Source of the DNA: a virus
DNA length: 64,000 nucleotides
Strand: one strand, 5' to 3'
IMG/VR virus record: IMGVR_UViG_3300042881_003464
Location: 107,840 to 171,839 of that record
Position numbers and translations under genes: made by a program. Shown here in pieces: positions 16,299 through 60,976 of the stretch. The notes under the pieces are model-generated. The model was not told where the DNA came from. It saw only the letters and a list, made by a program, of their open reading frames with translations, and made no database searches. Every line of letters begins with the position of its first letter. Position 1 is the first letter of the stretch.

Positions 16299-16312
16299 AA
16301 TTCAAACCGTGA
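16286..16312 (+). other. Vestige of a radical SAM gene start (duplication scar)
   Basis: Overlapping the end of candidate A is an ATG reading M-D-D-L-E-F-K-P-stop. The first 20 bases match, with one change, the start of the radical SAM gene at 17516 (M-N-D-L-E-F-K). This suggests that gene A once ended directly on the radical SAM start and that a second transferase copy was inserted by tandem duplication, leaving this remnant. Confidence 0.5.
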
Positions 16313-16361
16313 ATACGAATCCAGAGATGATGTTCTGGCAGGAATACAAAAGGCACACCAA

Positions 16362-18850: not shown

Positions 18851-20120
18851 CTACAACGATCCTCGCCCTGTCAAGATAAATTTTGATTCTCTAACAGATC
18901 GTCAAAAGTTCCTGCTAACCGAGAGTAAAACTTTTTGTATCTATCCATGGATACATTTGCATACCTATCCAACTGGTGAAGCGCATCCGTGCTGTCACAG
19001 CACCATGTGGCAATCAGTAGGACACTGTAAAAAGAACACATTAAAAGAAATTTGGAATCAAGCTCCAATGCGCAATCTGCGCCAGAACATGTTAGAAGAA
19101 CGTGAAAGCGCAGGGTGTGTAAGATGCTATGAACAGGAAAAAACCGGTTTCATGAGCGGACGACAAGCAGCCAACAAGCATCATGGTCATCATATCAATC
19201 GTGTTGATGAAACAGATTCAACTGGCCGGCTTGACAGATTTGAAATGACATACTGGGATATACGTTTTAGTAATCTCTGTAATTTAAGATGTCGTAGCTG
19301 CGGTTTTATATTTTCCAGTAGTTGGTATGCTGATCAAGTCAAGCTAGCAGGACCTGAGTGGGGCAAACTATTTCCAGCTATGAACTATGCGGGACGTACT
19401 GAAACCGACATGTGGGAACAATTGTTACCGCATCTTGACTATGTAGAACAAATTTACTTTGCTGGCGGTGAGCCACTCATGATGGAGGAGCATTATAACA
19501 TTCTTGAAGAGTTGGAGCGCAGAGGTAGGTTTGATGTAAGACTGATCTACAACACTAACTTTACGCAGACCAAACTCAAATCAAGATCAGTTTTTGACTA
19601 TTGGCGACGTTTTGATTCAGTGAGTGTGGGTGCTAGCCTTGATGCCATGGGCGAACGAGCAGAATACATTCGCAAAGGCACAGACTGGGACACAGTTGAA
19701 CGCAATCGTGAACGCATGCTAGAGATATGCCCCAATGTTGACTTTTACATAAGTCCTACTCTAAGTTTAATGAATGCCTGGCATCTGCCAGACTTTCACC
19801 GTGATTGGGTAAGTCGAGGGTTGATCAGAGCTCAAGACCTAAACGTAAACATTCTGCAAGATCCTCCGCACTATAGAATAGATGTGGCCAGTGCGCGATA
19901 TAAAGATCAGCTGCGTGCCAAGTTTCGTGAACACATCGAATGGTTACAGCCTTTGGATCCCTTTAAACGTGCAAGTCAAGGATTTGAAAGTGCTATAACT
20001 TTTATGGACAGTAGAGACAACAGCGAAAAATTGCCTGAGTTTTGGGCTAAGTCTCAACAACTAGACGAGATTCGTGGAGAGAGCATGTTATCCGTGTTAC
20101 CCGAACTGCAAGATCTATGA
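18837..20120 (+). CDS. Radical SAM enzyme with N-terminal twitch domain (3 of 5), 427 aa
   Basis: Radical SAM cysteines 148, 152 and 155 (CNLRCRSC); N-terminal cluster cysteines 34, 52/53, 94 and 97 with the FCIYPWIHLHTYPTGEAHPCC signature. FAGGEPLM near residue 210. Together with the next two genes it forms a subgroup with a double Cys in the twitch block. Overlaps the previous gene by 14 bases. Confidence 0.8.
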   Translation: MTKSDYNDPRPVKINFDSLTDRQKFLLTESKTFCIYPWIHLHTYPTGEAHPCCHSTMWQSVGHCKKNTLKEIWNQAPMRNLRQNMLEERESAGCVRCYEQEKTGFMSGRQAANKHHGHHINRVDETDSTGRLDRFEMTYWDIRFSNLCNLRCRSCGFIFSSSWYADQVKLAGPEWGKLFPAMNYAGRTETDMWEQLLPHLDYVEQIYFAGGEPLMMEEHYNILEELERRGRFDVRLIYNTNFTQTKLKSRSVFDYWRRFDSVSVGASLDAMGERAEYIRKGTDWDTVERNRERMLEICPNVDFYISPTLSLMNAWHLPDFHRDWVSRGLIRAQDLNVNILQDPPHYRIDVASARYKDQLRAKFREHIEWLQPLDPFKRASQGFESAITFMDSRDNSEKLPEFWAKSQQLDEIRGESMLSVLPELQDL

Positions 20121-21352
20121 CACTGCCCAATAAAACTTTTTGTATACTGCCATGGGTAAGTTTGGAAACCAGCCCAATTGGTACTGTACGCCCATGTTGT
20201 TTGGCCAAGGATGAAATAGTAGATGAACACAATGACAAATACCAACTTACCTCTGCGACCTTCGATCAAATACGAGATAGCAGTCACATGCGCGAACTCC
20301 GACGTGCATTCATTGCAGGTGAACTTCCGGCCACGTGTGAGCGTTGTTGGTCAGTTGAAGCCAGTGGAGGAACCTCCAAACGACAACACACACTGGAGCG
20401 ATTAAAACACTTAATCACAGACATGACATGGACAGAAGATGCCAATGATCTAATTTTTTTAGATCTTAAACTAGGCAACATCTGTAATCTCAAGTGTAGA
20501 ATATGTGGGCCATGGAGTAGTAGTACATTTGCCAGTGAAGAGGTTGGTCAAATAATGACCTTGGACCGTAAGCAAACCTATGCGTACAAAATGTTGAGAG
20601 AAGGTCGATGGCCCAAAGAAAGCACTGTGTTCTGGCAGCAGTTAGATGAATTTGCTGAACAGATACGGTATCTTGAATTCACGGGCGGTGAGCCATTTAT
20701 GATTCAAGAACACTTTGACTTTTTGCAGACTCTTGTAGATCGTGGTTTGGCACACAATATTGAAATACACTACAACACCAATGGCACACACTATCCAGAA
20801 CAAGGCGTAGAACTCTGGCCCCATTTTAAATTAGTAGAAATTGCACTCAGCATTGATGACATAGGTCAACGATTTGAATATCAGCGCACAGGTGCCAAGT
20901 GGCCAGAGGTAATGAACAACCTAGAAAAGTTTAGACAACTAAGAGAAGCCAGCTCTAATATTCAGTTGCAACTCTGCTGTACCATTAGCATTTGGAACGT
21001 TCTATACTTTAATACCATAGCTCAGTGGGCAGCATCCTTTCCTTGGGACTTTGTTTATTGGAATTATCTACACGATTCACCAGTATGGTGTGTGCAAAAT
21101 GTTGTGGAAGCCATCAAAGAACGAATTATCAGTCAACTGTTAAGAGAACGTATAGATCATCCCTATGCAGAAGATCGTAAGAACATCATTGCGTTTATGC
21201 GAGCCAAAGAAGGTTGGATGGGTGTAGGTAAAGGCGGTACCTTGACCTACGAGATCAGCAGATTAGACACTGTACGACAACAGAATCTTGCAGACGCTTG
21301 TCCTGATCTAGCATATATCATAAACTACGATGGCCCAGTTGACTACTCCTAA
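20117..21352 (+). CDS. Radical SAM enzyme with N-terminal twitch domain (4 of 5), 411 aa
   Basis: ATGA overlap with copy 3. Radical SAM cysteines 123, 127 and 130 (CNLKCRIC); N-terminal cysteines 9, 27/28, 74 and 77 (CERCW). FTGGEPFM near residue 193. Shares FCILPWVSLETSPIGTVRPCC with copy 3. Substrate unknown. Confidence 0.8.
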   Translation: MTLPNKTFCILPWVSLETSPIGTVRPCCLAKDEIVDEHNDKYQLTSATFDQIRDSSHMRELRRAFIAGELPATCERCWSVEASGGTSKRQHTLERLKHLITDMTWTEDANDLIFLDLKLGNICNLKCRICGPWSSSTFASEEVGQIMTLDRKQTYAYKMLREGRWPKESTVFWQQLDEFAEQIRYLEFTGGEPFMIQEHFDFLQTLVDRGLAHNIEIHYNTNGTHYPEQGVELWPHFKLVEIALSIDDIGQRFEYQRTGAKWPEVMNNLEKFRQLREASSNIQLQLCCTISIWNVLYFNTIAQWAASFPWDFVYWNYLHDSPVWCVQNVVEAIKERIISQLLRERIDHPYAEDRKNIIAFMRAKEGWMGVGKGGTLTYEISRLDTVRQQNLADACPDLAYIINYDGPVDYS

Positions 21353-22640
21353 GCCTGATACTTTGTGCATGGCACCTTGGACACACACGTATCTGTCACC
21401 GCAGACTGAACGTAGAATGTGTTGTGCCAGTCGTGAACCTGCACAGAATTTTCAACAGTATATTGACACAGCAGCAGGCACCGGTCGTTACATACCCATT
21501 ACGCTTGAACAACACTGGAATGGAGACCACATGCGCAGTGTGCGTCGTCGCATGTTAGCAGGTGAAACACTGCCTGAATGTGAAGTGTGCAACAACAAAT
21601 TATTGAACACTGATGTTTATCGTGACTATTTTAATCATTTGTTTGCGCACAAATGGCCTGAAGTACAGAGCTCCACTGACGAATCAGGTGCCACAACCAT
21701 GCAGCCAGTTAGTTGGGACTATAGATTTACCAACCTATGCAATTTTAAATGCCGTATGTGTGGAGACATGTTGAGCAGTGCATGGGAAAGTGAGCGCAAA
21801 CAGCATGATCTTGTGGACTGGACTGACAACCGTAACCACTGGATGCGTCCAGAAATCAAAAAACAAATCACTGCATTTCAAGACAGTGTAATAGAACAAG
21901 AATTCTCTGATGCAGTAGAACAACACCGTGTGGAAGAAGTCTATTGGGTAGGCGGCGAACCCTTGATGTACGAGCAACACTGGCGGTACATGCAGCGCAT
22001 TATTGAACTAGGAGACGGTCCCAGTGTTTACGCAAGGTATAATACAAATCTTAGCAGGATTAATCATCTTGGCGTTGGTCTTTTCAAAGACATTTTGGCG
22101 AAGGTTAGAGACTGGCAAATCTGCGCTAGCCTCGACGGAACCGGCAGTGTCGGAGAATATATTAGATACGGTCTTGATTATCAAACATGGCTACAAAATT
22201 TCAAAGAAGGAATGAGTTATGCAAAGCATGCCAGACAGATGCGCATAGATTTCACTCTTACTCTACCTGGCTTGACTGAAGTCTTGGCTATTGAACAGTT
22301 GGCCAAGGAACTTGGCTGTGGCTTGCTTGCCAAAACCGTGTTTGCTTTTACACCAGATAACATCTGGAGTCCTTTGATTCTGCCTAGGCCTGCGCTTGAT
22401 GCAATAGTACGGCCTTTGTTGGCTCAATGTCAAACCACAGTGATGCGTGATTTGCTGCAACAACTTCTTGAACGTCCAACTTTTGAAGAAACATGGCCCG
22501 ACGTTTATCCAGATGCTGTGCAAAAAGGTCGGCAAACTGTGTTACAATTAGAGAAAATACGTAAAGATAAATTGATCATGGCAGACATAGTCAAACAGAA
22601 TCCAGTGTTAGAGGCATGGTGGCATGACATCTCTAGTTAA
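21330..22640 (+). CDS. Radical SAM enzyme with N-terminal twitch domain (5 of 5), 436 aa
   Basis: Overlaps copy 4 by 23 bases. Radical SAM cysteines 137, 141 and 144 (CNFKCRMC); N-terminal cysteines 13, 31/32, 84 and 87 (CEVC). VGGEPLMYEQH near residue 210. Last of the run of radical SAM genes; followed by an unknown gene overlapping its stop. Confidence 0.8.
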   Translation: MAQLTTPKPDTLCMAPWTHTYLSPQTERRMCCASREPAQNFQQYIDTAAGTGRYIPITLEQHWNGDHMRSVRRRMLAGETLPECEVCNNKLLNTDVYRDYFNHLFAHKWPEVQSSTDESGATTMQPVSWDYRFTNLCNFKCRMCGDMLSSAWESERKQHDLVDWTDNRNHWMRPEIKKQITAFQDSVIEQEFSDAVEQHRVEEVYWVGGEPLMYEQHWRYMQRIIELGDGPSVYARYNTNLSRINHLGVGLFKDILAKVRDWQICASLDGTGSVGEYIRYGLDYQTWLQNFKEGMSYAKHARQMRIDFTLTLPGLTEVLAIEQLAKELGCGLLAKTVFAFTPDNIWSPLILPRPALDAIVRPLLAQCQTTVMRDLLQQLLERPTFEETWPDVYPDAVQKGRQTVLQLEKIRKDKLIMADIVKQNPVLEAWWHDISS

Positions 22641-47777: not shown

Positions 47778-48803
47778 TTATTTCCAGATTGTGTTACCAT
47801 CAGGACCTTTGAGATCCTTACGCCAGTTATCTTGAATCAGTTTAATAACTGATTGAGGCATGTGTACATATTCTAGTTCTTCGCTCATTTTTGCACCGTT
47901 CTTGTAGCTCCAGTCAAAGAATTTAAGAATAGCACGTCCGGTAAGCGGATCAGCTTGTTGCTTGTGCATTAGAATAAAACTTGCACCTGTTGCAGGCCAA
48001 GCCTCTTTACCAGTTTGCCATGTCAACAACAGATACATTCCTGGTGCATTAGCCCAATCTGCATTGGCTGCTGCTGCTTTGAATGTGTCGTCGCTTGGTT
48101 GAACAAAGTTACCATCGCGATTTTTCAATTGTGCGTGAGCAATTTTGTTTTTCTTTGCATAAGCATATTCTACATAACCAAAGGCACCTTTGATACGTTG
48201 TACTTGTGCTGCTACACCTTCGTTGCCTTTGCCGCCTATACCAACTGGCCATTTAACTGCTGTGCCTTCGCCCACTGTCTTTTGGAAGTCAGCATTGGCC
48301 TTGCCAAGGTAGTTGGTCCACACGAATGTTGTACCAGAGCCATCTGCACGATGAATTACAGTGATATTAATGGCAGGTAGATTTACACCGGGATTCAAAT
48401 CAGTGATTGCTTTGTCGTTCCACTTGGTAATTTTGCCTAGGTGAATGTTAGCTACTACATCACTAGTTAGTTTTAACTGTCCAGCTGCGATACCATCTAG
48501 ATTAACAACAGGCACAACTCCGCCAATTATAGCAGGAAACTGCATTAGACCTTCTTTGTCTAATTCTTCAGGCTTTAGTGGCATGTCACTAGCACCAAAG
48601 TCAACTGTCTTGGCTTTGATTTGACGAATTCCACCACCAGAACCAATTGATTGATAATTTAGACCAATACCTGTGGCTGCTTTATATGCTTCAGCCCATT
48701 TGGCATAGATAGGATAAGGAAAAGTAGCACCTGCGCCTGTTAGATCAGCAGACCAGGCATTAAATGACAGCACCGTCAATGCCGCGTACAAAAGTTTTTT
48801 CAT
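47778..48803 (-). CDS. pstS: Periplasmic phosphate-binding protein PstS, 341 aa
   Basis: Start ATG at 48803 gives signal peptide KKLLYAALTVLSFNAWSA. Mature part opens DLTGAGATFPYPIYAKW and contains YQSIGSGGGIRQI, VDFGASDMPL and RADGSGTTFVWTNYL, the residues that bind phosphate in PstS. High-affinity phosphate capture for the host Pst ABC importer. Known as an auxiliary gene in cyanophages; here it is paired with a porin. Confidence 0.95.
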   Translation of the reverse strand: MKKLLYAALTVLSFNAWSADLTGAGATFPYPIYAKWAEAYKAATGIGLNYQSIGSGGGIRQIKAKTVDFGASDMPLKPEELDKEGLMQFPAIIGGVVPVVNLDGIAAGQLKLTSDVVANIHLGKITKWNDKAITDLNPGVNLPAINITVIHRADGSGTTFVWTNYLGKANADFQKTVGEGTAVKWPVGIGGKGNEGVAAQVQRIKGAFGYVEYAYAKKNKIAHAQLKNRDGNFVQPSDDTFKAAAANADWANAPGMYLLLTWQTGKEAWPATGASFILMHKQQADPLTGRAILKFFDWSYKNGAKMSEELEYVHMPQSVIKLIQDNWRKDLKGPDGNTIWK

Positions 48804-48838
48804 GTGTAATCTCCATTTTGTGTGCAATGCACAAAGAA

Positions 48839-48873
48839 TATTTAAACACAATGGTATTACAACTGTGTTACAA
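48839..48873 (-). promoter_or_regulatory. Candidate Pho box and -10 of pstS
   Basis: On the - strand, heptamers TTGTAAC (48873-48867) and TTGTAAT (48862-48856), four bases apart, and a weaker TTGTGTT (48851-48845) give an 11-base periodicity, as in PhoB sites. TAAATA at 48844-48839 lies 11 bases after the second heptamer, where the -10 should be. Confidence 0.55.
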
Positions 48874-48896: not shown

Positions 48897-49097
48897 TTAC
48901 ATGCCGCGGGAGTTATAGTGTTTGACGTAGACGCAGCGAGGGCTAACCTTGTATCCCTCTGTATACCAAGTGGCTCTTATACGGTCACGTTCACGTATAC
49001 AGCTTTCATAGTCAGGTTGTGGTGCTTGAATAATGCCTTTGCTTTGGGTCTGTCCCAAAGGTTGTGCCAAATACATGCTGATGATCAATATCCACAT
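48897..49097 (-). CDS. Small putative secreted protein, 66 aa
   Basis: N-terminal MWILIISMYLAQPLGQ is a possible signal or membrane segment. The rest is polar with two Cys (ESCIRERDRIRATW, PRCVYVKHYN), maybe forming a disulphide in the periplasm. TAAATA lies 6 bases upstream of the start. Function unknown. Confidence 0.55.
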   Translation of the reverse strand: MWILIISMYLAQPLGQTQSKGIIQAPQPDYESCIRERDRIRATWYTEGYKVSPRCVYVKHYNSRGM

Positions 49098-49114
49098 ACT
49101 GATATTTATTCATG

Positions 49115-49137
49115 AAAAAGCCCGCCGAAGCGGGCTT
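49115..49137 (-). terminator. Terminator of the tmRNA gene
   Basis: Stem AAGCCCGC-TTCG-GCGGGCTT followed by TTTCAT on the - strand. The same CCCGC-TTCG-GCGGG hairpin ends the pqqA unit at 55127. Confidence 0.8.
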
Positions 49138-49475
49138 GCTATTTTGGGTTACAAGGCATAACTGCCCCGGAGGTTACGCTGCGAGAGCGAATACCTCGTC
49201 GTTAGCTGCGTTTGCAGTTACTATGTTTCGCTGATTACGTCAGTCGACTCTCGTGTTGTCTGCTTGCCTACTCTTGACCCTGTCGAAACCATGTCTGGCC
49301 CATCATAAAGAGACTGACGATTAAGTATGTTGCGTTCTGGAGGCAGTGGGCCGCAGCCCAATCTGTTCCATTCGCTTTCGGTATAGTAGTACATGTCTAC
49401 TGGCATACAATCTCCTTATGGTGGACCAGGCGGGAGTCGAACCCGCGTCCAGAACCCTTTTCAGTTTGCTTCATA
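49138..49475 (-). ncRNA. ssrA: Circularly permuted (two-piece) tmRNA
   Basis: Order on the - strand is acceptor piece first, coding piece second. The acceptor piece holds GGACGCGGGTTCGACTCCCG and ends CTGGTCC-A-CCA at 49419. After a 117-base intervening segment (49418-49302) the coding piece begins GGGCCAG at 49301, then GGTTTCGACAGGG, the tmRNA D-region. Acceptor stem GGGCCAG/CTGGTCC has the G3-U70 alanine identity pair, and AGGGTC/GGTTCT can form helix P2. The tag frame starts at the GCA resume codon (49215) and encodes ANAANDEVFALAA, stop TAA at 49176-49174. Hairpins and the terminator follow. The 5' edge of the acceptor piece is approximate. Frees stalled ribosomes and tags proteins for proteolysis. 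Confidence 0.88.
49221..49406 (-). CDS. Possible 61-aa ORF across the tmRNA intervening segment
   Basis: Starts with ATG 13 bases after the tmRNA acceptor CCA and has a strong ribosome-binding site (TAAGGAG, 5-base spacing). The first 35 codons (MPVDMYYYTESEWNRL..) fill the intervening segment and look protein-like; the rest reads through the tmRNA coding piece. Either an overlapping gene, or a chance frame made by a structured spacer. Confidence 0.35.
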   Translation of the reverse strand: MPVDMYYYTESEWNRLGCGPLPPERNILNRQSLYDGPDMVSTGSRVGKQTTRESTDVISET

Positions 49476-49610
49476 CAACAATTCTTTTAGCTGTTCGCAG
49501 TATTGCTGACACTGTCCACAGTTGTGATCCAATTCCATGATGCGTTTAACCAATTCTTCTTTGGTTTGAAAATCTGATTCACGGATATTTCTACATACAC
49601 AGACTATCAT
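49461..49610 (-). CDS. Bfd-like [2Fe-2S] ferredoxin, 49 aa
   Basis: Too short for most gene callers. Reads MIVCVCRNI at the start and CGQCQQYC near the end: Cys4-x-Cys6 and Cys31-x2-Cys34, the pattern of bacterioferritin-associated ferredoxin (C-x-C...C-x-x-C), though the spacing between the pairs is shorter (24 instead of about 31 residues). Bfd reduces and releases iron from bacterioferritin. It ends next to the tmRNA acceptor piece and may be co-transcribed with it. Confidence 0.7.
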   Translation of the reverse strand: MIVCVCRNIRESDFQTKEELVKRIMELDHNCGQCQQYCEQLKELLYEAN

Positions 49611-54353: not shown

Positions 54354-54382
54354 AGTATAACAGCAACGGACTATTTGGTCAA
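54354..54382 (-). promoter_or_regulatory. Sigma70-type promoter of the metallophosphoesterase
   Basis: TTGACC (54377-54382), 17-base spacer, TATACT (54354-54359); overlaps the end of the phosphatase gene. Confidence 0.8.
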
Positions 54383-54898
54383 CCTACGTTGCTTTTTGGC
54401 ATCTGCCAAAATAAAAACCTTTTCATTGTCCGTGGTCCAATCCTCTGCTAAAGCCACGCCATTGATGCTGTGCTTTTCCTCAGGATCATATCCCAGGCCA
54501 AGACTTTCCATCATTAGATGCTTGACCAAGAGATTGGGACTGCGAAAGTCTTCGGTATCCTGGAAACCCATGAGTACTCCAACTTCTGCAACAGCACCGC
54601 TACGACACACTCCAGCATGGCAATGCACAACCACGTTCATGGAATTAGCCAAGGCGTGTTGCAGGCACTCTACTAGTTGCTTGGCCTGCTCAGGACTACA
54701 ACGCCAGGATTCATCTATGCTACGATCCGTAGCTTCAATGTCTAGAAAAAAGAACTGATGCCGCTCCTTGAATGTGTATTTGGGCTCAGGAAACTCTACA
54801 CCGGGATCCACTATCTGTATCAGCATGGAATTTACACCTGGATCGTAGTGGTGTCCCCTAATTACTTCACTCAATGAAATGTTTTGAATCCAAGGCAT
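54371..54898 (-). CDS. Dual-specificity/tyrosine phosphatase-like protein, 175 aa
   Basis: The signature loop NVVVHCHAGVCRSGAV (H-C-x5-R-S) near residue 93 is intact, with an upstream Asp-containing loop. Family members dephosphorylate proteins or nucleotides and inositols; many phages encode one of unknown target. Next to another phosphatase gene but under separate transcription. Confidence 0.8.
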   Translation of the reverse strand: MPWIQNISLSEVIRGHHYDPGVNSMLIQIVDPGVEFPEPKYTFKERHQFFFLDIEATDRSIDESWRCSPEQAKQLVECLQHALANSMNVVVHCHAGVCRSGAVAEVGVLMGFQDTEDFRSPNLLVKHLMMESLGLGYDPEEKHSINGVALAEDWTTDNEKVFILADAKKQRRLTK

Positions 54899-54975
54899 AC
54901 TGGTTCCTTAAAGTTTAATGAAAATCACTATACATAATTGTGCAGATTACGCAAGATTCAGCATGACCTGTGCCA

Positions 54976-54981
54976 TATAAT
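54976..54981 (+). promoter_or_regulatory. -10 box of pqqA
   Basis: TATAAT 50 bases upstream of the pqqA start; no clear -35 at the expected distance, so an activator may be needed. A short hairpin (CATACT..AGTATG, about 54988-55004) lies in the leader. Confidence 0.5.
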
Positions 54982-55030
54982 AGAGCTACATACTAATGCA
55001 GTATGTTAATTTTATCAAAGGAGAACTAAC

Positions 55031-55105
55031 ATGGCATGGACTACACCTTCAGCACAAGATATGCGTTTTGGTTTTGAAATCACCATGTATATCGCTAATC
55101 GCTAA
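55031..55105 (+). CDS. pqqA: PQQ precursor peptide PqqA, 24 aa
   Basis: Far below usual gene-calling limits. The C-terminal half reads MRFGFEITMYIANR, essentially the consensus of bacterial PqqA, with Glu16 and Tyr20 in the E-x3-Y arrangement that becomes the PQQ ring; an aromatic W3 and P6 also match. Radical SAM PqqE joins these two residues after PqqD presents the peptide. It has AAGGAG six bases before the ATG, a TATAAT box and a tight terminator, and is alone on the + strand between - strand genes. No pqqB-E genes are seen here, so host enzymes would process it. Confidence 0.88.
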   Translation: MAWTTPSAQDMRFGFEITMYIANR

Positions 55106-55124
55106 TAGTTGTTAGTGATCAAGA

Positions 55125-55149
55125 CAGCCCGCTTCGGCGGGTTTTTCTT
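55125..55149 (+). terminator. Terminator of pqqA
   Basis: Stem CCCGC-TTCG-GCGGG (55128-55141) followed by T5CT3. Confidence 0.85.
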
Positions 55150-55228
55150 TGGTACCCCCACTCCGATTCGAACGGAGAACAACTGCTCCTTTTGAGAGAG
55201 CCGACTTTGCCAATTTGTCCATGGGGGC
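55150..55228 (-). tRNA. tRNA-Leu(CAA)
   Basis: Acceptor stem GCCCCCA/TGGGGGT, anticodon loop CTCAAAA, CCA encoded. The variable arm is only about 7 nt, unusual for Leu. Confidence 0.85.
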
Positions 55229-55231
55229 ATT

Positions 55232-55310
55232 TGGTCTCCCTGGCTGGATTCGAACCAGCGATCTCTGGTCCCCCAGACCAGCACTCTAGACCAGACTGAG
55301 CCACAGGGAG
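55232..55310 (-). tRNA. tRNA-Pro(GGG)
   Basis: Cloverleaf with stem CTCCCTG/CAGGGAG, anticodon loop CTGGGGG, canonical GTTCGAAT T-arm and encoded CCA. Confidence 0.92.
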
Positions 55311-55311
55311 T

Positions 55312-55686
55312 TTATTTTACAGCTTGTGCTCGGGCTTGAATCAGTTTGTCAACATTGCCCTTGACAATGACATTTTGATAGGTGTCAGTCAAGCCCGAAG
55401 CATGATCATACACTCGATTGTCTACTTCATGATATGTGCGTACACGTTCATTGGAAGCACGATAACGTTCGGTATCCTTGTGAAAATGTCGTTGTACTCT
55501 AGCACGACACACTGCTAGAGCATTCTTGCGATTGTCTTCTCTGCTGCGACTTGAAGTGCCATTGGCCTGTATGCCAGTGGGCACATGGATACAACGACAA
55601 CAGTTCTGATGTTTGTTGCGATGTTGTCCACCGCCACCAGTGGAACTAAACCATTCAAATCTAAAATCTTGATCTAGAATTTTCAT
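55312..55686 (-). CDS. Stand-alone GGQ release-factor-like protein, 124 aa
   Basis: Contains FSSTGGGGQHRNKHQN (GGQ catalytic motif of peptide-chain release factors) near residue 17 and RTYHEVDNRVYDH like domain 3 of RF1/RF2. No codon-recognition domain and no clear basic ArfB tail, so it resembles PrfH/ArfB-like rescue factors. Hydrolyses peptidyl-tRNA on stalled ribosomes by inference. Lies between tRNA genes and complements the phage tmRNA. Confidence 0.82.
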   Translation of the reverse strand: MKILDQDFRFEWFSSTGGGGQHRNKHQNCCRCIHVPTGIQANGTSSRSREDNRKNALAVCRARVQRHFHKDTERYRASNERVRTYHEVDNRVYDHASGLTDTYQNVIVKGNVDKLIQARAQAVK

Positions 55687-55696
55687 GTTGACTCCT

Positions 55697-55773
55697 TGGT
55701 ACGGATGGAGGGACTCGAACCCTCAAAACTCGGATTTTAAGTCCGATACGTATACCTGTTCCGTCACATCCGC
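55697..55773 (-). tRNA. tRNA-Leu(TAA)
   Basis: Stem GCGGATG/CATCCGT, anticodon loop CTTAAAA, encoded CCA; variable loop only 5 nt. Confidence 0.85.
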
Positions 55774-55780
55774 AGAATTA

Positions 55781-55860
55781 TGGTGCCCCAGGCGAGACTC
55801 GAACTCGCACCCGAAGACTAGTTCCTAAGACTAGCGTGTCTACCATTCCACCACCGGGGC
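55781..55860 (-). tRNA. tRNA-Leu(TAG)
   Basis: Stem GCCCCGG/CTGGGGC, anticodon loop CTTAGGA, variable region TCTTCGGGT (about 9 nt), encoded CCA. Confidence 0.88.
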
Positions 55861-55867
55861 TTTGTTT

Positions 55868-55954
55868 TTAAATTGTTGAAATTAAGCAGCGCAGATATAG
55901 ATCTGCCTGGCGTTGACGATAATCAATAACTGCGCTTATGATACGATGCCACAT
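55868..55954 (-). CDS. Tiny protein, 28 aa
   Basis: ATG at 55954 is preceded by TAGGA; sequence MWHRIISAVIDYRQRQADLY resembles short helical proteins with an R-x-R-x-A-x-x-Y end found in many proteobacteria. Follows the 55-aa gene directly, in another frame. Coding status uncertain. Confidence 0.4.
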   Translation of the reverse strand: MWHRIISAVIDYRQRQADLYLRCLISTI

Positions 55955-55955
55955 A

Positions 55956-56123
55956 TCAAAGAGTCCTATTAGAACCGTAGGTGAATTCTCTTTCAAACTT
56001 TTCAATGTCCGAAGCAGTCTTTGGATCTCTACTGATGATGTAGTTTTCCAGACGACTCTGATAGCTTTCTTCGGGAAACATTTCACTCAAACGTTCTAAT
56101 ATATGTGTTATAAGCTGCGACAT
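55956..56123 (-). CDS. Small acidic protein, 55 aa
   Basis: ATG at 56123 has AAGGAA at a good distance. SQLITHILERLSEMFPEESY followed by ENYIISRDPKTASDIEKFER is a helix-turn pattern I have seen in short uncharacterised phage and proteobacterial proteins. Function unknown. Confidence 0.6.
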   Translation of the reverse strand: MSQLITHILERLSEMFPEESYQSRLENYIISRDPKTASDIEKFEREFTYGSNRTL

Positions 56124-56192
56124 GGTCATTTCCTTTTTGTATATAGGATATTTATTGCACTGCAACATTTATTCTATATTTTGCCAAGGAAA

Positions 56193-56268
56193 TGGTGCCG
56201 ACTCCTGGTTACGCTCCAGGCTCTCGTGTTCTTCAGACACATGCTTTCACTAGATTAGCTTAGTCGGC
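56193..56268 (-). tRNA. tRNA-Phe(GAA) with atypical D and T loops
   Basis: Stem GCCGACT/AGTCGGC, anticodon loop CTGAAGA. T-stem CCTGG/CCAGG closes the loop AGCGTAA instead of TTCGAAT, and the D-loop lacks the usual GG. Encoded CCA. Confidence 0.8.
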
Positions 56269-56270
56269 CT

Positions 56271-56343
56271 TGGTAGCCCGTGACAGAATCGAACTGCCGT
56301 AACCGCCGTGTAAAGACGGAGTTCTACCATTAAACTAACGGGC
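56271..56343 (-). tRNA. tRNA-Val(TAC)
   Basis: Stem GCCCGTT/ACGGGC with anticodon loop TTTACAC; encoded CCA. Its first nine bases supply the stop codon of the gene at 56335. Confidence 0.9.
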
Positions 56344-56571
56344 CCAGGTTAATACAAAAATTGATCTATCTTGATCCCACTTGAATGCCACACCTAGTTG
56401 ATATGAGGATTTACTGTCATTCCAGGCCCAGGTCACATAGTGTTTGCCAACATGAGTCTGCAGCCAGGACTCCACAAGTTCAACGCCTTGAATCCAGTCC
56501 AGCTGTGGTACGATTCCAGCGGGCCACGGCACAGTGGCCGTGTACACAAAAGCATGACGATCAACCAACAT
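56335..56571 (-). CDS. Hypothetical protein, 78 aa
   Basis: ATG at 56571; the longer frame would read through tRNA-Pro. Aromatic-rich (DWIQGVELVESWLQTHVG..WAWNDSKSSYQLGVAF). The TAG stop lies inside the 5' end of tRNA-Val. Function unknown. Confidence 0.55.
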   Translation of the reverse strand: MLVDRHAFVYTATVPWPAGIVPQLDWIQGVELVESWLQTHVGKHYVTWAWNDSKSSYQLGVAFKWDQDRSIFVLTWAR

Positions 56572-56584
56572 GCTTGTATTTAAT

Positions 56585-56662
56585 TGGTCTCGGTGGAGAG
56601 ATTCGAACTCCCGACCCTCTGCTCCCAAAGCAGATGCGCTACCCAGACTGCGCTACACCGAG
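56585..56662 (-). tRNA. tRNA-Pro(TGG)
   Basis: Stem CTCGGTG/CACCGAG, anticodon loop TTTGGGA, canonical T-arm and CCA. Confidence 0.93.
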
Positions 56663-56744
56663 GTTACTGCCGGTCTATTACATAAATCAATGCTACCATC
56701 ATAACTATCACAACGATTGCCCCATGATTGGTCTCCTGGTTATA

Positions 56745-56819
56745 TGGTAGGGGATGAGGGACTCGAACCCCCGCATGGCGGAATCAAAATCCGCTGCCTT
56801 ACCAACTTGGCGAATCCCC
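56745..56819 (-). tRNA. tRNA-Gln(TTG)
   Basis: Stem GGGGATT/ATCCCC with anticodon loop TTTTGAT and canonical T-loop; CCA encoded. Confidence 0.92.
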
Positions 56820-56826
56820 AATAGTA

Positions 56827-56976
56827 CTAACTTGGTATGATCTTGGGAATATAAGGCACATTCCTTGGACCATGACGCTGTTCAAACAGTTGCCGTGCTT
56901 CTTGTAAATCTTTTGCCCATACACGATCTTTGGTTTCTCCCTGCGGAGTCTTCACAGTGGTTTCATACATTGGCAT
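56827..56976 (-). CDS. Hypothetical protein, 49 aa
   Basis: ATG at 56976 behind AAAGGAAA. Reads MPMYETTVKTPQGETKDRVW then a helix AKDLQEARQLFEQRHG; looks like a small phage domain that mixes a beta hairpin and a helix. Unknown. Confidence 0.6.
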   Translation of the reverse strand: MPMYETTVKTPQGETKDRVWAKDLQEARQLFEQRHGPRNVPYIPKIIPS

Positions 56977-56992
56977 AATATTTCCTTTATAC

Positions 56993-57067
56993 TGGCCCGA
57001 CCGGCAGGAATCGAACCCACATTCTGGAGGTAGAAGCTCCATGTCCTATCCATTGAACGACGGTCGG
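56993..57067 (-). tRNA. tRNA-Arg(TCT)
   Basis: Stem CCGACCG/CGGTCGG, anticodon loop CTTCTAC, discriminator G, CCA encoded. Confidence 0.9.
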
Positions 57068-57073
57068 TAATAC

Positions 57074-57149
57074 TGGAGCGGGCGAAGAGGTTCGAACTCT
57101 CGACATTTTGCTTGGAAGGCAAATGCTCTACCAACTGAGCTACGCCCGC
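57074..57149 (-). tRNA. tRNA-Gly(TCC)
   Basis: Stem GCGGGCG/CGCCCGC, anticodon loop CTTCCAA, D-arm AGCTCAGTTGGTAGAGC. Confidence 0.93.
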
Positions 57150-57155
57150 AACTAC

Positions 57156-57230
57156 TGGAGCGGCTAACCGGGTACGATCCGGTGACTTATGCTTGGCAAG
57201 CACATGCGTTACCAACTACGCCATAGCCGC
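57156..57230 (-). tRNA. tRNA-Gly(GCC)
   Basis: Stem GCGGCTA/TAGCCGC, anticodon loop TTGCCAA. T-loop is ATCGTAC (A54/T58 swap) rather than TTCGAAT. Confidence 0.88.
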
Positions 57231-57236
57231 TTAGAT

Positions 57237-57704
57237 CTATAATGCTCCATTGGCAATTCTGTCTGCTGCATAGCTTGCTGCAAATGCCTTTGGCTTTACC
57301 AAAGGAATCACATTACAAGTACCGCGAATGTAGCCAATGGCCTGACCAACTACACAACTACTACCGTGTGCTTCATTGGGATTGATATCCAGATGTACTT
57401 CAACTGGAAAGTCACCCATTACTGGTGCTAGCCTCTGAAACATCTCACTAACACGATATACTTCATTCATTAACCGCATGGCAGGTTTGCTGAGCTTGTG
57501 GTCATAGTCACGTTCTCTTGTGATCTCGCCAAAGATCTTGCAACCGTTGTTGCCATTGATGTGTATCACAACCGCAACAGTGTATTCAGCGTACCATATG
57601 TTTTTTTCTCTATATCTAATACTATCAGCACCGAGATATACACGAGTACCTGGGCCACAGTTGTCTACAAATTGTTTTATTTCATCTACGTCGATACGTG
57701 GCAC
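57237..57704 (-). CDS. RNase H-like protein of the YkuK/DUF458 family, 155 aa
   Basis: First strand YLGADSIRYR carries the catalytic Asp, VEVHLDINPNEAHGSSC the second, and VVGQAIGYIRG the family block. DUF458 proteins are predicted RNase H-fold nucleases of unknown substrate found in bacteria and phages. Cytoplasmic. Located among tRNA genes, so a tRNA-processing or -sparing role is possible but not shown. Confidence 0.75.
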   Translation of the reverse strand: MPRIDVDEIKQFVDNCGPGTRVYLGADSIRYREKNIWYAEYTVAVVIHINGNNGCKIFGEITRERDYDHKLSKPAMRLMNEVYRVSEMFQRLAPVMGDFPVEVHLDINPNEAHGSSCVVGQAIGYIRGTCNVIPLVKPKAFAASYAADRIANGAL

Positions 57705-57721
57705 AATAAATCCTTTTAAGT

Positions 57722-57796
57722 TGGCCGGTCCGGAGAGATTCGAACTCCCGACAGCTGGTTTCGAAGACCAGAACTCTTCCGCTGAGCTACGGACCG
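57722..57796 (-). tRNA. tRNA-Arg(TCG)
   Basis: Stem CGGTCCG/CGGACCG, anticodon loop CTTCGAA, canonical T-arm, CCA encoded. Confidence 0.93.
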
Positions 57797-57802
57797 ATTA
57801 TA

Positions 57803-57874
57803 TGGCGGGCCTTGACAGGAATTGAACCTGCTACTCTATCCGTTGGAAGGATTAAAGGTCGCCAGAGTCAGCCC
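57803..57874 (-). pseudogene. Degenerate tRNA-Trp-like sequence
   Basis: The 3' half (T-arm AGCAGGTTCAATTCCTGT, acceptor AGGCCC, CCA) and an anticodon-like hairpin ATCC-TTCCAAC-GGAT (CCA) look like a tRNA, but the acceptor pairs only partly (GGGCT) and there is no normal D-arm. The 5' half overlaps the C-terminal codons of the gene at 57852. Probably a decayed or invaded tRNA; an intact tRNA-Trp is at 58744. Confidence 0.5.
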
Positions 57875-58040
57875 GTTGTTTGTATTCACGCCATGCATCC
57901 ATGGCCACTATGCCCCAGCCAAACATCGCAGTGACATTTGCATACACTGCTGCCATGTTGTTGGCACCGTAACCGGTAATCATACCAGCCACACAAAACA
58001 ATAGTACGATCAGTGGAAGAACTAGATTCAAAGTTTTCAT
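57852..58040 (-). CDS. Small membrane protein, 62 aa
   Basis: ATG at 58040 with GAGG seven bases upstream. Two transmembrane segments (LVLPLIVLLFCVAGMITGYG and NVTAMFGWGIVAMDAW) and a charged tail. Holin-like topology, but no further evidence. Its end overlaps a degenerate tRNA. Confidence 0.6.
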   Translation of the reverse strand: MKTLNLVLPLIVLLFCVAGMITGYGANNMAAVYANVTAMFGWGIVAMDAWREYKQRADSGDL

Positions 58041-58060
58041 GTTAGACCTCAAAAAAAAAA

Positions 58061-58152
58061 TGGCGGAGCGTATTAGATTCGAACTAATGGTACTGATTTC
58101 TCAATACGACGGTTTAGCAAACCGCTGCCTTCGACCACTCGGCCAACGCTCC
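58061..58152 (-). tRNA. tRNA-Ser(GCT)
   Basis: Stem GGAGCGT/ACGCTCC, anticodon loop TTGCTAA, long variable arm, CCA encoded. A ten-A tract lies just downstream of the 3' end. Confidence 0.93.
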
Positions 58153-58197
58153 ATGTTAGTAGTATACTGCAAATAGTATTTTAGATCAAGTGAAAAC

Positions 58198-58271
58198 TGG
58201 TGCCCCGTGACAGAATCGAACTGCCGATCCATGATTACAAATCAAGTGTTATACCGTTTAACTAACGGGGC
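58198..58271 (-). tRNA. tRNA-Thr(TGT)
   Basis: Stem GCCCCGT/ACGGGGC, anticodon loop TTTGTAA, canonical T-arm and CCA. Confidence 0.92.
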
Positions 58272-58378
58272 CGGTTGTCGTCTTCTTCTTGATCTGGCAT
58301 GGGTGGCACACGTCGAGCTAGCCACATCCAGTACCAGACCAAAGGAATACAACAGATAAAAAATAAAAGCGGGCGCAT
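58262..58378 (-). CDS. Tiny membrane protein, 38 aa
   Basis: ATG then hydrophobic RPLLFFICCIPLVWYWMWLA and a polar Pro/Asp tail; TAG stop is inside the 5' end of tRNA-Thr. No strong ribosome-binding site. Plausible small phage membrane peptide. Confidence 0.45.
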   Translation of the reverse strand: MRPLLFFICCIPLVWYWMWLARRVPPMPDQEEDDNRPR

Positions 58379-58415
58379 TGTTTAGTTAGTATGCACTATG
58401 CTTTTAGAAAATATT

Positions 58416-58503
58416 TGGCGGAAGTGGTGGGATTCGAACTCACGGTACCTTGCGATACGACAGTTTTCAAGACTGCTCCAATAGACCTCTCTGGCACACT
58501 TCC
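58416..58503 (-). tRNA. tRNA-Ser(TGA)
   Basis: Stem GGAAGTG/CACTTCC, anticodon loop CTTGAAA, long variable arm, CCA. Confidence 0.93.
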
Positions 58504-58507
58504 TTTT

Positions 58508-58583
58508 TGGTGCTGATAACCAGAATCGAACTGGTCACCTCCGCCTTACCAAGGCGGTGCTCTACCTAATGAGCTATATCAGC
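58508..58583 (-). tRNA. tRNA-Thr(GGT)
   Basis: Stem GCTGATA/TATCAGC, anticodon loop TTGGTAA, CCA. Confidence 0.93.
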
Positions 58584-58584
58584 A

Positions 58585-58661
58585 TGGTAGCGATGGAGGG
58601 ATTCGAGCCCCCGATCTTCCGCGTATGAAGCGGCTGCATTGACCAACTATGCTACATCGCC
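58585..58661 (-). tRNA. tRNA-Met(CAT) (elongator, or Ile-CAT)
   Basis: Stem GGCGATG/CATCGCT, anticodon loop TTCATAC. Paired 1:72 end shows it is not the initiator. Lysidine-modified Ile decoding cannot be excluded. Confidence 0.9.
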
Positions 58662-58665
58662 ATCA

Positions 58666-58739
58666 TGGTAGTCAGTACTGGTAACGATCCAGTGTCTCAC
58701 GGTTATCAGCCGTGTGCTCTACCTTTGAGCTAACTGACC
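58666..58739 (-). tRNA. tRNA-Ile(GAT)
   Basis: Stem GGTCAGT/ACTGACT, anticodon loop CTGATAA; T-loop ATCGTTA (A54/T58 swap). Confidence 0.88.
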
Positions 58740-58743
58740 AATT

Positions 58744-58817
58744 TGGCTCCGGTGGAGGGAATCGAACCCCCACTAACGGTTTTGGAGACCGCCGCGCTGC
58801 CATTACACCACACCGGA
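58744..58817 (-). tRNA. tRNA-Trp(CCA)
   Basis: Stem TCCGGTG/CACCGGA, anticodon loop CTCCAAA, CCA. Confidence 0.93.
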
Positions 58818-58826
58818 ATAACTTTA

Positions 58827-58904
58827 TGGTACCGCCTGAGGGACTCGAACCCCCGACCCTTGGCTTCGTAGGCCAATGCTCTAATCCAACTGAGCTAAAG
58901 CGGT
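58827..58904 (-). tRNA. tRNA-Arg(ACG)
   Basis: Stem ACCGCTT/AGGCGGT, anticodon loop CTACGAA (A34 needs inosine from host TadA), CCA. Confidence 0.93.
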
Positions 58905-58911
58905 ATATGTT

Positions 58912-58989
58912 TGGAGCATCGGGCTGGATTTGAACCAGCGAATCGAGAGTTTTGCAGACTCCGCCATTAGGCCGCTCTGGTACCGATGC
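58912..58989 (-). tRNA. tRNA-Cys(GCA)
   Basis: Stem GCATCGG/CCGATGC, anticodon loop CTGCAAA, CCA. Confidence 0.9.
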
Positions 58990-58991
58990 AT

Positions 58992-59067
58992 TGGGGTATC
59001 CGATCGGGATTGAACCGACGCTGAGTGTTCCACAGACACCCGTGCAGACCACTACACTACGGACACC
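58992..59067 (-). tRNA. tRNA-His(GTG)
   Basis: Extra G at position -1 opposite C73, stem GTGTCCG/CGGATAC, anticodon loop CTGTGGA, CCA. Confidence 0.93.
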
Positions 59068-59068
59068 A

Positions 59069-59323
59069 TTAAATCCTATCTAGTGGTATTTCTTCCACTG
59101 GATGAGTAATCTTGCTTTCTACTACAAAAACATCAAACACAGAGTCATCTTCAGGATGACGTATTTCTTCAAGAAACCTATCGCCAAACTTCGAACGCCA
59201 ATGCACAAAGCATTGTTTATTACTATCCCAACGAGCTACGCTGGCATTACGGCAACTACCTGTGTAATATGCACCATGTTCAAGATCAGCCTTGGCTATC
59301 TTGGGTGTGTAATCTCTCAACAT
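59069..59323 (-). CDS. Hypothetical protein, 84 aa
   Basis: Ribosome-binding site AAGGAGA, eight bases before ATG. Sequence YYTGSCRNASVARWDSNKQCFVHWRSKFGDRFLEEI suggests a small beta-rich domain. Between tRNA-His and tRNA-Ala. Unknown. Confidence 0.65.
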   Translation of the reverse strand: MLRDYTPKIAKADLEHGAYYTGSCRNASVARWDSNKQCFVHWRSKFGDRFLEEIRHPEDDSVFDVFVVESKITHPVEEIPLDRI

Positions 59324-59338
59324 TATTTTCTCCTTGTT

Positions 59339-59413
59339 TGGTGGACCGACGGGGAGTCAAACCCCGACCTCTCGGGTGCAAACCGAGTGTGCTCTCGCTA
59401 TCACTATCAGCCC
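59339..59413 (-). tRNA. tRNA-Ala(TGC)
   Basis: Stem GGGCTGA/TCGGTCC with the G3-U70 alanine identity pair, anticodon loop TTTGCAC, CCA. Confidence 0.93.
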
Positions 59414-59418
59414 TTGAT

Positions 59419-59494
59419 TGGCTCCAGCGGTTGGGATCGAACCAACGACAAACGGATTAACAGTCCGCTGCTTCTACCTCTGAGCTACGCTGGA
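59419..59494 (-). tRNA. tRNA-Asn(GTT)
   Basis: Stem TCCAGCG/CGCTGGA, anticodon loop CTGTTAA, CCA. Confidence 0.94.
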
Positions 59495-59501
59495 ATAACA
59501 C

Positions 59502-59594
59502 TGGTGGGTGTCCACGGATTCGAACCGCGAATGTTTACCACGAGGGACCGGATTTACAGTCCGGTGTAGCACACGCCATAGCTACAAGACACCC
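59502..59594 (-). tRNA. tRNA-Tyr(GTA)
   Basis: Stem GGGTGTC/GACACCC, anticodon loop CTGTAAA, long variable arm, CCA. Confidence 0.92.
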
Positions 59595-59600
59595 TGAAAT

Positions 59601-59846
59601 TTATTTTAGATCTTTGGCATCCACGCAGGTGCCACCTTTGAATACATAGACATCACTGTCCACACGCAGTTGCTCAAACACATGGTTGTTTACACACACA
59701 TATGGATCTTTTTTATTTTCCACAGCATAGTAAACACCAAACCCAATACCAGCCAGCAACATAATCACAGGCAGATATTTCAAATATTTTACGATTTCAG
59801 GCAGGGCACTGAGAATCTGCGGTAGATTTTTCAGTAGTTCTTTCAT
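59601..59846 (-). CDS. Small membrane-anchored protein, 81 aa
   Basis: ATG at 59846. Residues 20-40 are a transmembrane helix (YLPVIMLLAGIGFGVYYAVE); the C-terminal 35 residues hold two Cys (YVCVNNHVFEQL, GGTCVDAKDL) and may be periplasmic with a disulphide. A TAAATA box sits 6 bases before the start. Could be a spanin-like or host-interaction protein; unknown. Confidence 0.6.
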   Translation of the reverse strand: MKELLKNLPQILSALPEIVKYLKYLPVIMLLAGIGFGVYYAVENKKDPYVCVNNHVFEQLRVDSDVYVFKGGTCVDAKDLK

Positions 59847-59864
59847 GCCTGTATTTACTGTTTT

Positions 59865-59939
59865 TGGCGGTCCCAAGGGGTAACGATCCCCTTCTTTAGG
59901 CGTGACAGGCCTACGTGCGTCCATGAACACTTTGAGACC
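59865..59939 (-). tRNA. tRNA-Asp(GTC)
   Basis: Stem GGTCTCA/TGGGACC, anticodon loop CTGTCAC; T-loop ATCGTTA (A54/T58 swap). Confidence 0.86.
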
Positions 59940-59948
59940 AAGATCATA

Positions 59949-60096
59949 ATAGCAAGTGCTGAGATAATGCCAATTTAGACGTCTTGCGCTAACAAGGTCA
60001 AAGCCGAGGCCAGTTATGTCAGGACCCGTCCCCGGCCGGGAGAGCCCGCATAGTGACAGCGTCCTGTCACGCTACCTGTATCAGCACTTGCTGTTA
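59949..60096 (-). ncRNA. Possible structured RNA closed by a long stem
   Basis: Ends are an inverted repeat (AGCAAGTGCTGA at one side, TCAGCACTTGCT at the other). Inside lie hairpins such as GTGACAG..CTGTCAC and GGGCTCTCCC. No ORF and no tRNA anticodon arm. Transcribed with the tRNA cluster if anything. Family not identified. Confidence 0.4.
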
Positions 60097-60306
60097 TAAT
60101 CTAAAAATGCTCTGCGTCCCGCGGCGGTAATTATACTGCATCAAGCACCAAGTAGTCCTAGCACCATCACACACAGCCTCCACCCGCTCCACGACCGGGA
60201 CCGTTCTCGCATTGCCAGCGCACTTTAGGCTAGAAGTGTACCGCCCGTGTGTGTCACCACACTTCTCATCCTCCGGGACCAGAGTATCCAGTGACGCTGG
60301 AACGTT
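60097..60306 (-). other. Non-coding, structured-looking spacer
   Basis: About 210 bases with no credible gene. On the - strand it contains GAAGTGT..ACACTTC around a GTGTG..CACAC hairpin and a G-rich segment. Probably part of a larger non-coding RNA together with the flanking structured blocks. Confidence 0.3.
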
Positions 60307-60381
60307 TGGTACACGGTACGGGAATCGAACCCGTCTTCCAGCCTTGAAAGGGCTGTGTCCTAACCGATAGACGAACCGTGC
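60307..60381 (-). tRNA. tRNA-Glu(TTC)
   Basis: Stem GCACGGT/ACCGTGT, anticodon loop CTTTCAA, CCA. Flanked on both sides by structured non-coding DNA. Confidence 0.93.
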
Positions 60382-60694
60382 ATAAAATCGAGAACTAACA
60401 AGGAATCGCTGTTACAGATGCCGAAGCTGTGATACCGCATCAACCCTTGCTAAACTCTTTTCAGAGACAGATCGCTCACTTCTGTTTTATTTTAAATCTT
60501 GGTTAGGCCACGCTTTTCCACAGTCGCCCCTATCCTGGAGTGGTTACCCTGTCCACATTTGTTTCAGCGTCTCGTGCTAGCGGTTTTGTCCGCATATCTA
60601 GGTGCTCTGCTCTGCATTGCGCTAACGGTAGCCTAGCCAACCGGCCTAACTATGGTGTGGCGCCCCCTACTTTCAGGAAAGTAGTAACCGGAAC
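60382..60694 (-). ncRNA. Possible large structured non-coding RNA, 3' to the initiator tRNA
   Basis: 313 bases with no plausible ORF. Begins (on the - strand) with CTACTTTC..GAAAGTAG stem and has several further GC-rich hairpins (for example AAACCGCTAGC region, GGGCGACTGTGG). Ends with CCTTGTTAG preceded by a complementary TAAC. Lies downstream of a strong promoter and tRNA-fMet. Resembles the setting of large phage RNAs such as GOLLD or ROOL but I cannot identify it. Confidence 0.35.
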
Positions 60695-60771
60695 TGGTTG
60701 CGGAGAACAGGAATCGAACCTGATGTCTTTGGCTTATGAGACCAACGAGTAAACCGTTTCTCCCCTCCGCC
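60695..60771 (-). tRNA. Initiator tRNA-fMet(CAT)
   Basis: Anticodon loop CTCATAA; 3' end CGCAACCA leaves position 1 (G) opposite A72, the unpaired end typical of bacterial initiators; anticodon stem keeps two of the three G-C pairs. Promoter at 60791. Confidence 0.85.
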
Positions 60772-60790
60772 GCTGTATTGTATTTTGTCT

Positions 60791-60819
60791 AGTATAACAA
60801 AAAGAATTTAATTGGTCAA
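60791..60819 (-). promoter_or_regulatory. Sigma70-type promoter of initiator tRNA
   Basis: TTGACC (60814-60819), 17-base spacer, TATACT (60791-60796). Confidence 0.8.
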
Positions 60820-60825
60820 CCATAT

Positions 60826-60906
60826 AGAAACACATTCCAGGAACTCCGTAAAGATTTCCCTAGCGCCGGCCGCCTATATGTGTTCGAATGTGTTTTTATA
60901 TGGTGG
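60826..60906 (-). ncRNA. Long-stem RNA after tRNA-Lys
   Basis: CCATATAAAAACACATTC, starting at the CCA of tRNA-Lys, can pair with GAATGTGTTTCTATATGG, giving about 16 base pairs around a GC-rich loop region. Could be a terminator/processing structure or part of a small RNA. Layout mirrors the element at 61230. Confidence 0.4.
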
Positions 60907-60976
60907 AGCCACAGGGATTCGAACCCTGACCTGACGGATTAAAAGTCCGCTGTCTTAACCGTTTGACTATAGCTCC
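60901..60976 (-). tRNA. tRNA-Lys(TTT)
   Basis: Stem GGAGCTA/TGGCTCC, anticodon loop CTTTTAA, canonical T-arm and CCA. Confidence 0.94.

Follow-up and report, generated by a model that had tools for sequence, protein, structure and literature searches.

The window, that is, the whole stretch of 64,000 nucleotides analysed here, corresponds to positions 107,840 to 171,839 of the IMG/VR virus record IMGVR_UViG_3300042881_003464, which comprises 171,839 bases in total. At the edge of a tRNA array, it contains a short gene for PqqA, the PQQ precursor peptide, which is embedded in the following features:

54371..54898, minus strand: dual-specificity/tyrosine phosphatase-like protein of 175 aa, divergent neighbour (below Pfam cut-offs)
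54976..54981, plus strand: TATAAT, -10-like box of the presumed promoter (from the sequence; no -35 partner in the scan)
54988..55006, plus strand: inverted repeat ACATACT-AATGC-AGTATGT, a predicted 7-bp leader hairpin (from the sequence)
55019..55023, plus strand: Shine-Dalgarno sequence AGGAG, 7 nt 5' of the ATG (from the sequence)
55031..55105, plus strand: pqqA, PQQ precursor peptide MAWTTPSAQDMRFGFEITMYIANR (Pfam and NCBIfam equivalog matches above cut-off)
55076-55078, plus strand: Glu16 codon GAA (from the sequence)
55088-55090, plus strand: Tyr20 codon TAT (from the sequence)
55126..55143, plus strand: intrinsic terminator, a stem-loop followed by a T-rich tail (from the sequence and a scan)
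55150..55228, minus strand: tRNA-Leu(caa), edge of a 28-tRNA array (55150-60976) adjoining the pqqA unit

The open reading frame comprises 24 codons (75 bp), and the match of its product to PqqA is far beyond chance. The peptide was recognized both by the Pfam model PF08042 (39.4 bits, E = 5.7e-10; cut-off 21.1) and by the NCBIfam equivalog model TIGR02107 (38.4 bits, E = 7.6e-10; cut-off 20), and a six-frame search with PF08042 recovered the gene with 37.3 bits, with matches in none of 14 control genomes. It carries the E-x3-Y pair, Glu16 and Tyr20, which would form the PQQ skeleton. A first-pass annotation, made from the sequence alone, had described a 24-codon PqqA with Glu16-x3-Tyr20 that stands alone on the plus strand. 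The two family models bear out the former, and pqqA is indeed the sole plus-strand gene between annotated neighbours that both lie on the minus strand. The expression signals claimed for it stood in part: a -10 box, a ribosome-binding site and a terminator are present, forming a unit of about 170 bp from the -10 box to the terminator, but a sigma-70 scan upstream of pqqA revealed no promoter-like site on the plus strand, and the number of sigma-70 sites over the region (5 versus 4.6 in shuffled sequences) showed no excess, so that the promoter consists of a -10 match only. The inverted repeat, which had escaped the first-pass annotation, lies downstream of the -10 box and upstream of the ribosome-binding site. 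Since its core, CATAC..GTATG, was found at two further places in the record, this core is not unique to the pqqA leader. Besides the 28 tRNA genes, the window contains a phage tmRNA gene (49083-49511, minus strand) with the tag ANAANDEVFALAA, and a 124-aa protein with partial likeness to peptide chain release factor 1 is encoded between the tRNA genes (55312-55686, minus strand).

The record is that of a T4-type phage, a virus of water bacteria. Its portal (E = 1e-104) and its major head protein (E = 1.8e-100) are both of the T4 type, and the head protein shares 66-67% identity with its counterparts in large phages, among them Vibrio phage 2.275.O and Pseudomonas phage PA5oct. The window also holds genes for a virion structural protein of 2311 aa (8-6943, plus strand), a phage GroEL (44292-45914, minus strand; phrog_5725, E = 1.8e-182) and a phosphate transporter subunit-like protein (47778-48851, minus strand; phrog_5385). 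Two other virus contigs (L056 and L007) are 100% identical to the region around pqqA over 5,000 and 4,836 bases, and a diverged relative (L040), with 72-82% DNA identity to the window in the five longest pieces, carries its pqqA beside the same phosphatase-like gene and tRNA-Leu, with 58 of 66 nucleotides and 20 of 22 residues shared between the two genes. Family models for PqqB, PqqC, PqqD and PqqE found none of the genes pqqB-E in the record. Because the PqqC model matched nothing, controls included, their absence is carried by a tblastn search with four Acinetobacter PqqB-E proteins, which gave no match in the record and was positive for all four in three bacterial control loci. A search of the record for methanol dehydrogenase was likewise negative. 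In its first part (13805-22640, plus strand), the window has consecutive genes for several radical-SAM proteins, and in two of these a SPASM domain precedes the radical-SAM domain, a set that is unusual in a phage. These genes (13.8-22.6 kb) were considered as a substitute for PqqE and, with no match to the PqqE model, not adopted.

Bacterial DNA misjoined to a phage contig could produce a similar picture, and such assembly errors exist: two INPHARED contigs that match PqqA and are labelled 'Acinetobacter phage' (L004, CAKLQF020000010.1; L530, CAKLQH020000055.1) are, in the stretches examined, bacterial DNA with pqqABCDE and were dropped from the phage count given below. Here, however, the T4-type portal and head protein share the record with pqqA, the region recurs unchanged in two more virus contigs and keeps its neighbours in the diverged relative, and pqqB-E matches are lacking from the record. 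We therefore reject host contamination, which the first-pass annotation had named as a possible refutation, and regard a misjoin as extremely improbable. The gene is phage-encoded.

A tblastn search with PqqA against 50,697 INPHARED phage records returned 12 records with a match. Apart from the two bacterial contigs, these are four Melnitz variants, P19250A, Venkman, MEP301, MEP401, MEP402 and the uncultured podovirus MW202481, so that the search of phage genomes suggested in the first-pass annotation yielded ten non-bacterial records. Nine of the ten are isolates on Methylophilales/Methylophilaceae; according to the record taxonomy, Melnitz belongs to the Kyanoviridae, MEP401 and MEP402 belong to the Zobellviridae and the others are unclassified Caudoviricetes. 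A tblastn search for pqqB-E in the examined stretches of these records found none. PqqA is annotated in none of the ten: five (P19250A, Venkman, MEP301, MEP401 and MEP402) have no CDS at the site, and the other five (the four Melnitz records and MW202481) have an antisense 'hypothetical protein' placed over the gene, which confirms the suspicion that pqqA is missed by gene calling. There were no pelagiphage, roseophage or HMO-2011 isolates among the INPHARED matches, and a second marine PqqA type, used as the query, retrieved the same 12 records and no new phage. Also absent was MW202697, whose terminase matches that of MEP402 at 75%. Among the best 25 of 1943 matches to the MEP402 terminase, MEP401 and MEP402 were the only named methylophages, and a piece of Venkman had matches in EXVC282S and MW202481 only. 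The taxonomy also lists the methylophages MEP431-434, HIM624-A, phiMB624-A, MG-MTP1, RSA-MFP1 and Venkman EXVC038S, which lie outside the pqqA counts given here. Short pieces were retrieved when the window unit served as a DNA query; one lies on the pqqA gene of P19250A, and the others, among those listed, look like chance or terminator matches.

Two pattern scans of IMG/VR, each yielding at least 120 stretches, identified at least 240 distinct stretches with pqqA. A PqqA-like peptide is encoded in all 240 stretches examined. In 236 of them, an ATG lies no more than four codons before the Trp, giving peptides of 23-25 aa, and a Shine-Dalgarno 4-mer accompanies 235 of these 236 copies, compared with 10.9% of random places. 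No PqqB-E match was obtained by tblastn in the 240 viral stretches (2.09 Mb), whereas the same search gave at least one match in 50 of 116 bacterial stretches; as the viral stretches are short, this result means that pqqB-E are not nearby. When the 240 loci were grouped together with Melnitz, P19250A and the window locus on the basis of at least two shared proteins, the resulting 243 loci fell into a network of 223 (including Melnitz and P19250A), which common domains may have helped to join, a network of six to which the window locus belongs, a pair and 12 ungrouped loci. Hallmark genes reveal HMO-2011-type phages among the carriers, with a portal 61% identical to that of pelagiphage HTVC115P and 50% to that of HMO-2011, as well as further terminase and portal types. 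A second viral PqqA type (L254-L373) occurs partly in HMO-2011-type phages, whose cultured relatives gave no match. The gene is also carried by a contig of 303,057 bases with a related head protein and by a virus contig of 356,312 bases. Among 20 virus records with related head proteins, two matched PqqA and 18 did not, including one of 156,620 bases whose head protein is 99% identical; all of these 18 may be fragments.

The constraint on the peptide was assessed by substitution scans, whose patterns fix the neighbouring residues and leave out the GBR codons at Glu16. At this position, codons with a first base other than G gave no match, and GNY gave a single one, in a 112-aa open reading frame that was rejected as PqqA. 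At Tyr20, a first base other than T gave one match, L241, a true pqqA homologue whose end is altered and which is apparently broken, and TBN gave one chance open reading frame of 194 aa. An analogous scan at codon 10, by contrast, produced at least 120 matches. As far as these sequence patterns reach, the cross-link residues are shown to be near-invariant in viral PqqA. At pattern-free codons, pN/pS was 0.36 (111 distinct sequences) and 0.41 (77 sequences), which, together with the near-universal ribosome-binding site, indicates that the viral set as a whole is kept by selection.

The surroundings of the gene show comparable regularities. Of 14 leaders examined, that of the window included, ten have a clear stem of differing sequence in roughly the same position, and four (L518, L275, L373 and L035) do not. 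In a test with dinucleotide shuffles and controls, the mean folding z-score was -1.04 for 184 distinct pqqA leaders versus -0.31 for 660 other leaders from the same loci (P = 6e-10, a value that overstates the difference because the loci are related and thus not independent samples). A terminator lies no more than 90 nt after the stop codon in 42 of the 236 viral copies, versus 1.5 expected, so that many copies may be co-transcribed with their neighbours. Such an anatomy would yield a message that is stable and well translated, as suits a peptide required stoichiometrically.

PqqA is the only consumed part of the PQQ pathway, one PqqA being destroyed for each PQQ. It is this property that would make 75 bp of pqqA sufficient, since PqqB-E are reusable. 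In bacteria, PqqE together with PqqD cross-links Glu16 and Tyr20 of PqqA, a Glu-Tyr pair described for the M. extorquens peptide, and proteases, PqqB and PqqC complete PQQ (PMC10906245). In our view, phage pqqA probably functions as an auxiliary metabolic gene that contributes nothing but the consumable of a cofactor pathway. During infection, the phage would transcribe its short, hairpin-led and terminator-closed unit and PqqA would be made; host PqqD would then present the peptide to PqqE for the Glu16-Tyr20 cross-link, and host proteases, PqqB and PqqC would complete PQQ. The enzymes PqqB-E would be able to outlast host shut-off, so that PqqA would be the sole component in need of replacement once a phage shuts down host transcription. 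As a result, PQQ-dependent periplasmic alcohol (methanol) dehydrogenases would stay loaded, and electron flow would be sustained during phage production. We infer that the peptide is expressed, is accepted by PqqD/E of a host that is itself deduced, raises PQQ and benefits the phage, with PQQ presumably limiting during infection. In Acetobacter, over-expression of pqqAB increased PQQ by 29%, compared with an eightfold increase for the whole cluster (PMC7936290), suggesting that the precursor alone may not be limiting.

It is conceivable that phage PqqA acts instead as an inhibitory decoy that occupies host PqqD/PqqE and thereby diverts or slows PQQ synthesis, given that the PqqA-PqqD interaction is tight (Kd 0.39 uM; PMC10906245) and an excess of PqqA could thus titrate PqqD. 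However, a decoy need not retain both cross-link residues, and although the 240 viral copies have Glu16 and Tyr20 because the patterns required them, the scans for other residues gave one real homologue only. Some viral peptides are, moreover, letter-identical to peptides from bacterial genomes, and we consider the decoy reading quite unlikely. The finding that host pqqA copies differ in expression from one another (PMC9851590) would agree with a regulatory role, in which the phage provides PqqA while the host copies are silent and total PQQ hardly changes; this possibility, too, appears unlikely.

The distribution of the gene between phages bears on a further explanation. Between a 5,066-base Venkman piece and MW202481, 85 bp around pqqA are the sole common stretch (megablast, 90.6% identity). 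Similarly, a 1.9-kb segment of the window aligns with the related record G413 only at pqqA (77 nt, 89%) and with another related record, G416, at pqqA (103 nt, 82%) plus a 37-nt piece; the pqqA gene of G413 lies between tRNA genes and that of G416 near tmRNA. That pqqA can be all that two phages have in common, and that in the window lineage it lies beside or inside tRNA or tmRNA regions, is what would be expected of a passenger, a functionless short host fragment acquired near tRNA/tmRNA recombination sites. This view is opposed by a pN/pS well under 1, by the fact that 235 of 236 copies have kept both start codon and ribosome-binding site, by leader folding and terminators in excess of the controls and by the presence of pqqA in differing phage groups. 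The intact signals had already spoken against it, and we regard a passenger as very unlikely. Somewhat favoured is the idea that the pathway's one consumable has been acquired repeatedly by phages of PQQ-making bacteria, in the form of a mobile cassette of about 75 bp that brings its own leader hairpin and often encodes a host-identical peptide. It would represent a general strategy of replenishing nothing but the spent component, overlooked by annotation in cultured methylophages, in uncultured marine phages of the HMO-2011 type and in T4-type phages as large as 303 kb.

Potential hosts were sought among bacteria with matching peptides. A family-model search of 399 genomes of one order detected PqqA in 80, many of them multi-copy. 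In five bacterial genomes of 1.3 Mb, probably OM43/Methylopumilus to judge by their size and peptides, 12 stretches of 6 kb with 14 pqqA copies were examined; these stretches contain no pqqB-E, and ten of the 14 copies exactly match a viral peptide. Methylophilaceae have been described to carry 3-12 pqqA genes and typically one copy of the other pqq genes (PMC4109929). The window peptide, whose C-terminal end is DMRFGFEITMYIANR, has its nearest bacterial relatives in L390 and a Burkholderiales MAG (L171), with 20 of 22 residues shared, followed by peptides from Comamonadaceae and Burkholderiales MAGs with 19 of 22. The list of named bacteria was drawn with a pattern from the window's DMRFGFE-TMY core, in which TEMRF-type peptides could not appear, and is therefore biased to the window's type; the family-model search was not subject to this bias, and the closest peptide among its matches (L390) likewise shares 20 of 22 residues. 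Since the 1.3-Mb type is more distant from the window peptide than are the peptides of Comamonadaceae and other Burkholderiales, the methylotroph or glucose-oxidising host proposed in the first-pass annotation is to be qualified: Methylophilaceae are not favoured, and a non-Methylophilaceae member of the Burkholderiales is the more likely host, a leaning that rests on one short peptide.

Phage pqqA genes as such have been described before. PqqA and methanol dehydrogenase were reported for T4-like methylophages from Lake Baikal (PMC7678222), so that the kind is known and the window does not hold the first example. The population described there as VP_266 is, similarly, one of a T4-like freshwater phage whose PqqA was read as a PQQ auxiliary metabolic gene (PMC7678222), but it combines a phage methanol dehydrogenase with a predicted Methylophilaceae host, whereas no methanol dehydrogenase was found in the window record and the window peptide is of another type. 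In the portion of that paper considered here, PqqA is named for one population only. Viral pqqA, pqqE and pqqD genes from reservoir sediment were, according to their description, treated as phosphate-solubilisation genes (PMC13188868). The extra pqqA copies of Methylophilaceae (PMC4109929) and of the 1.3-Mb genomes resemble the phage gene in lying apart from pqqBCDE, but they are chromosomal, whereas the genes reported here reside in phages. The pqqA of the bacterial pqqABCDE operon encodes the same peptide family, with Glu16 and Tyr20; unlike in the operon, pqqB-E adjoin pqqA in none of the 240 viral stretches. In the text of the Melnitz paper searched for 'pqq', 'pyrroloquinoline' and 'auxiliary metabolic', PQQ is mentioned only as a medium supplement, and 'PQQ' is absent from the text of the paper on MEP401/402. 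Among the papers listed by searches of the open-access literature, a scope outside which most subscription papers and all bioRxiv preprints fall, there was no report of the breadth of pqqA in methylophages. This breadth, the missed annotation, the host-identical peptides and the expression anatomy look new.

In lakes and the sea, PQQ enzymes are required for the oxidation of methanol and other alcohols. Should phages be routine providers of the PQQ precursor, infection would directly support this oxidation step, and surveys that drop very short open reading frames miss the gene responsible. In addition, phage pqqA offers a clean test of the carriage of single pathway genes, since pqqA alone among the genes of its pathway encodes a consumable. 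With Venkman, Melnitz, MEP401/402 and P19250A available in culture together with their hosts, its proposed role is testable now.
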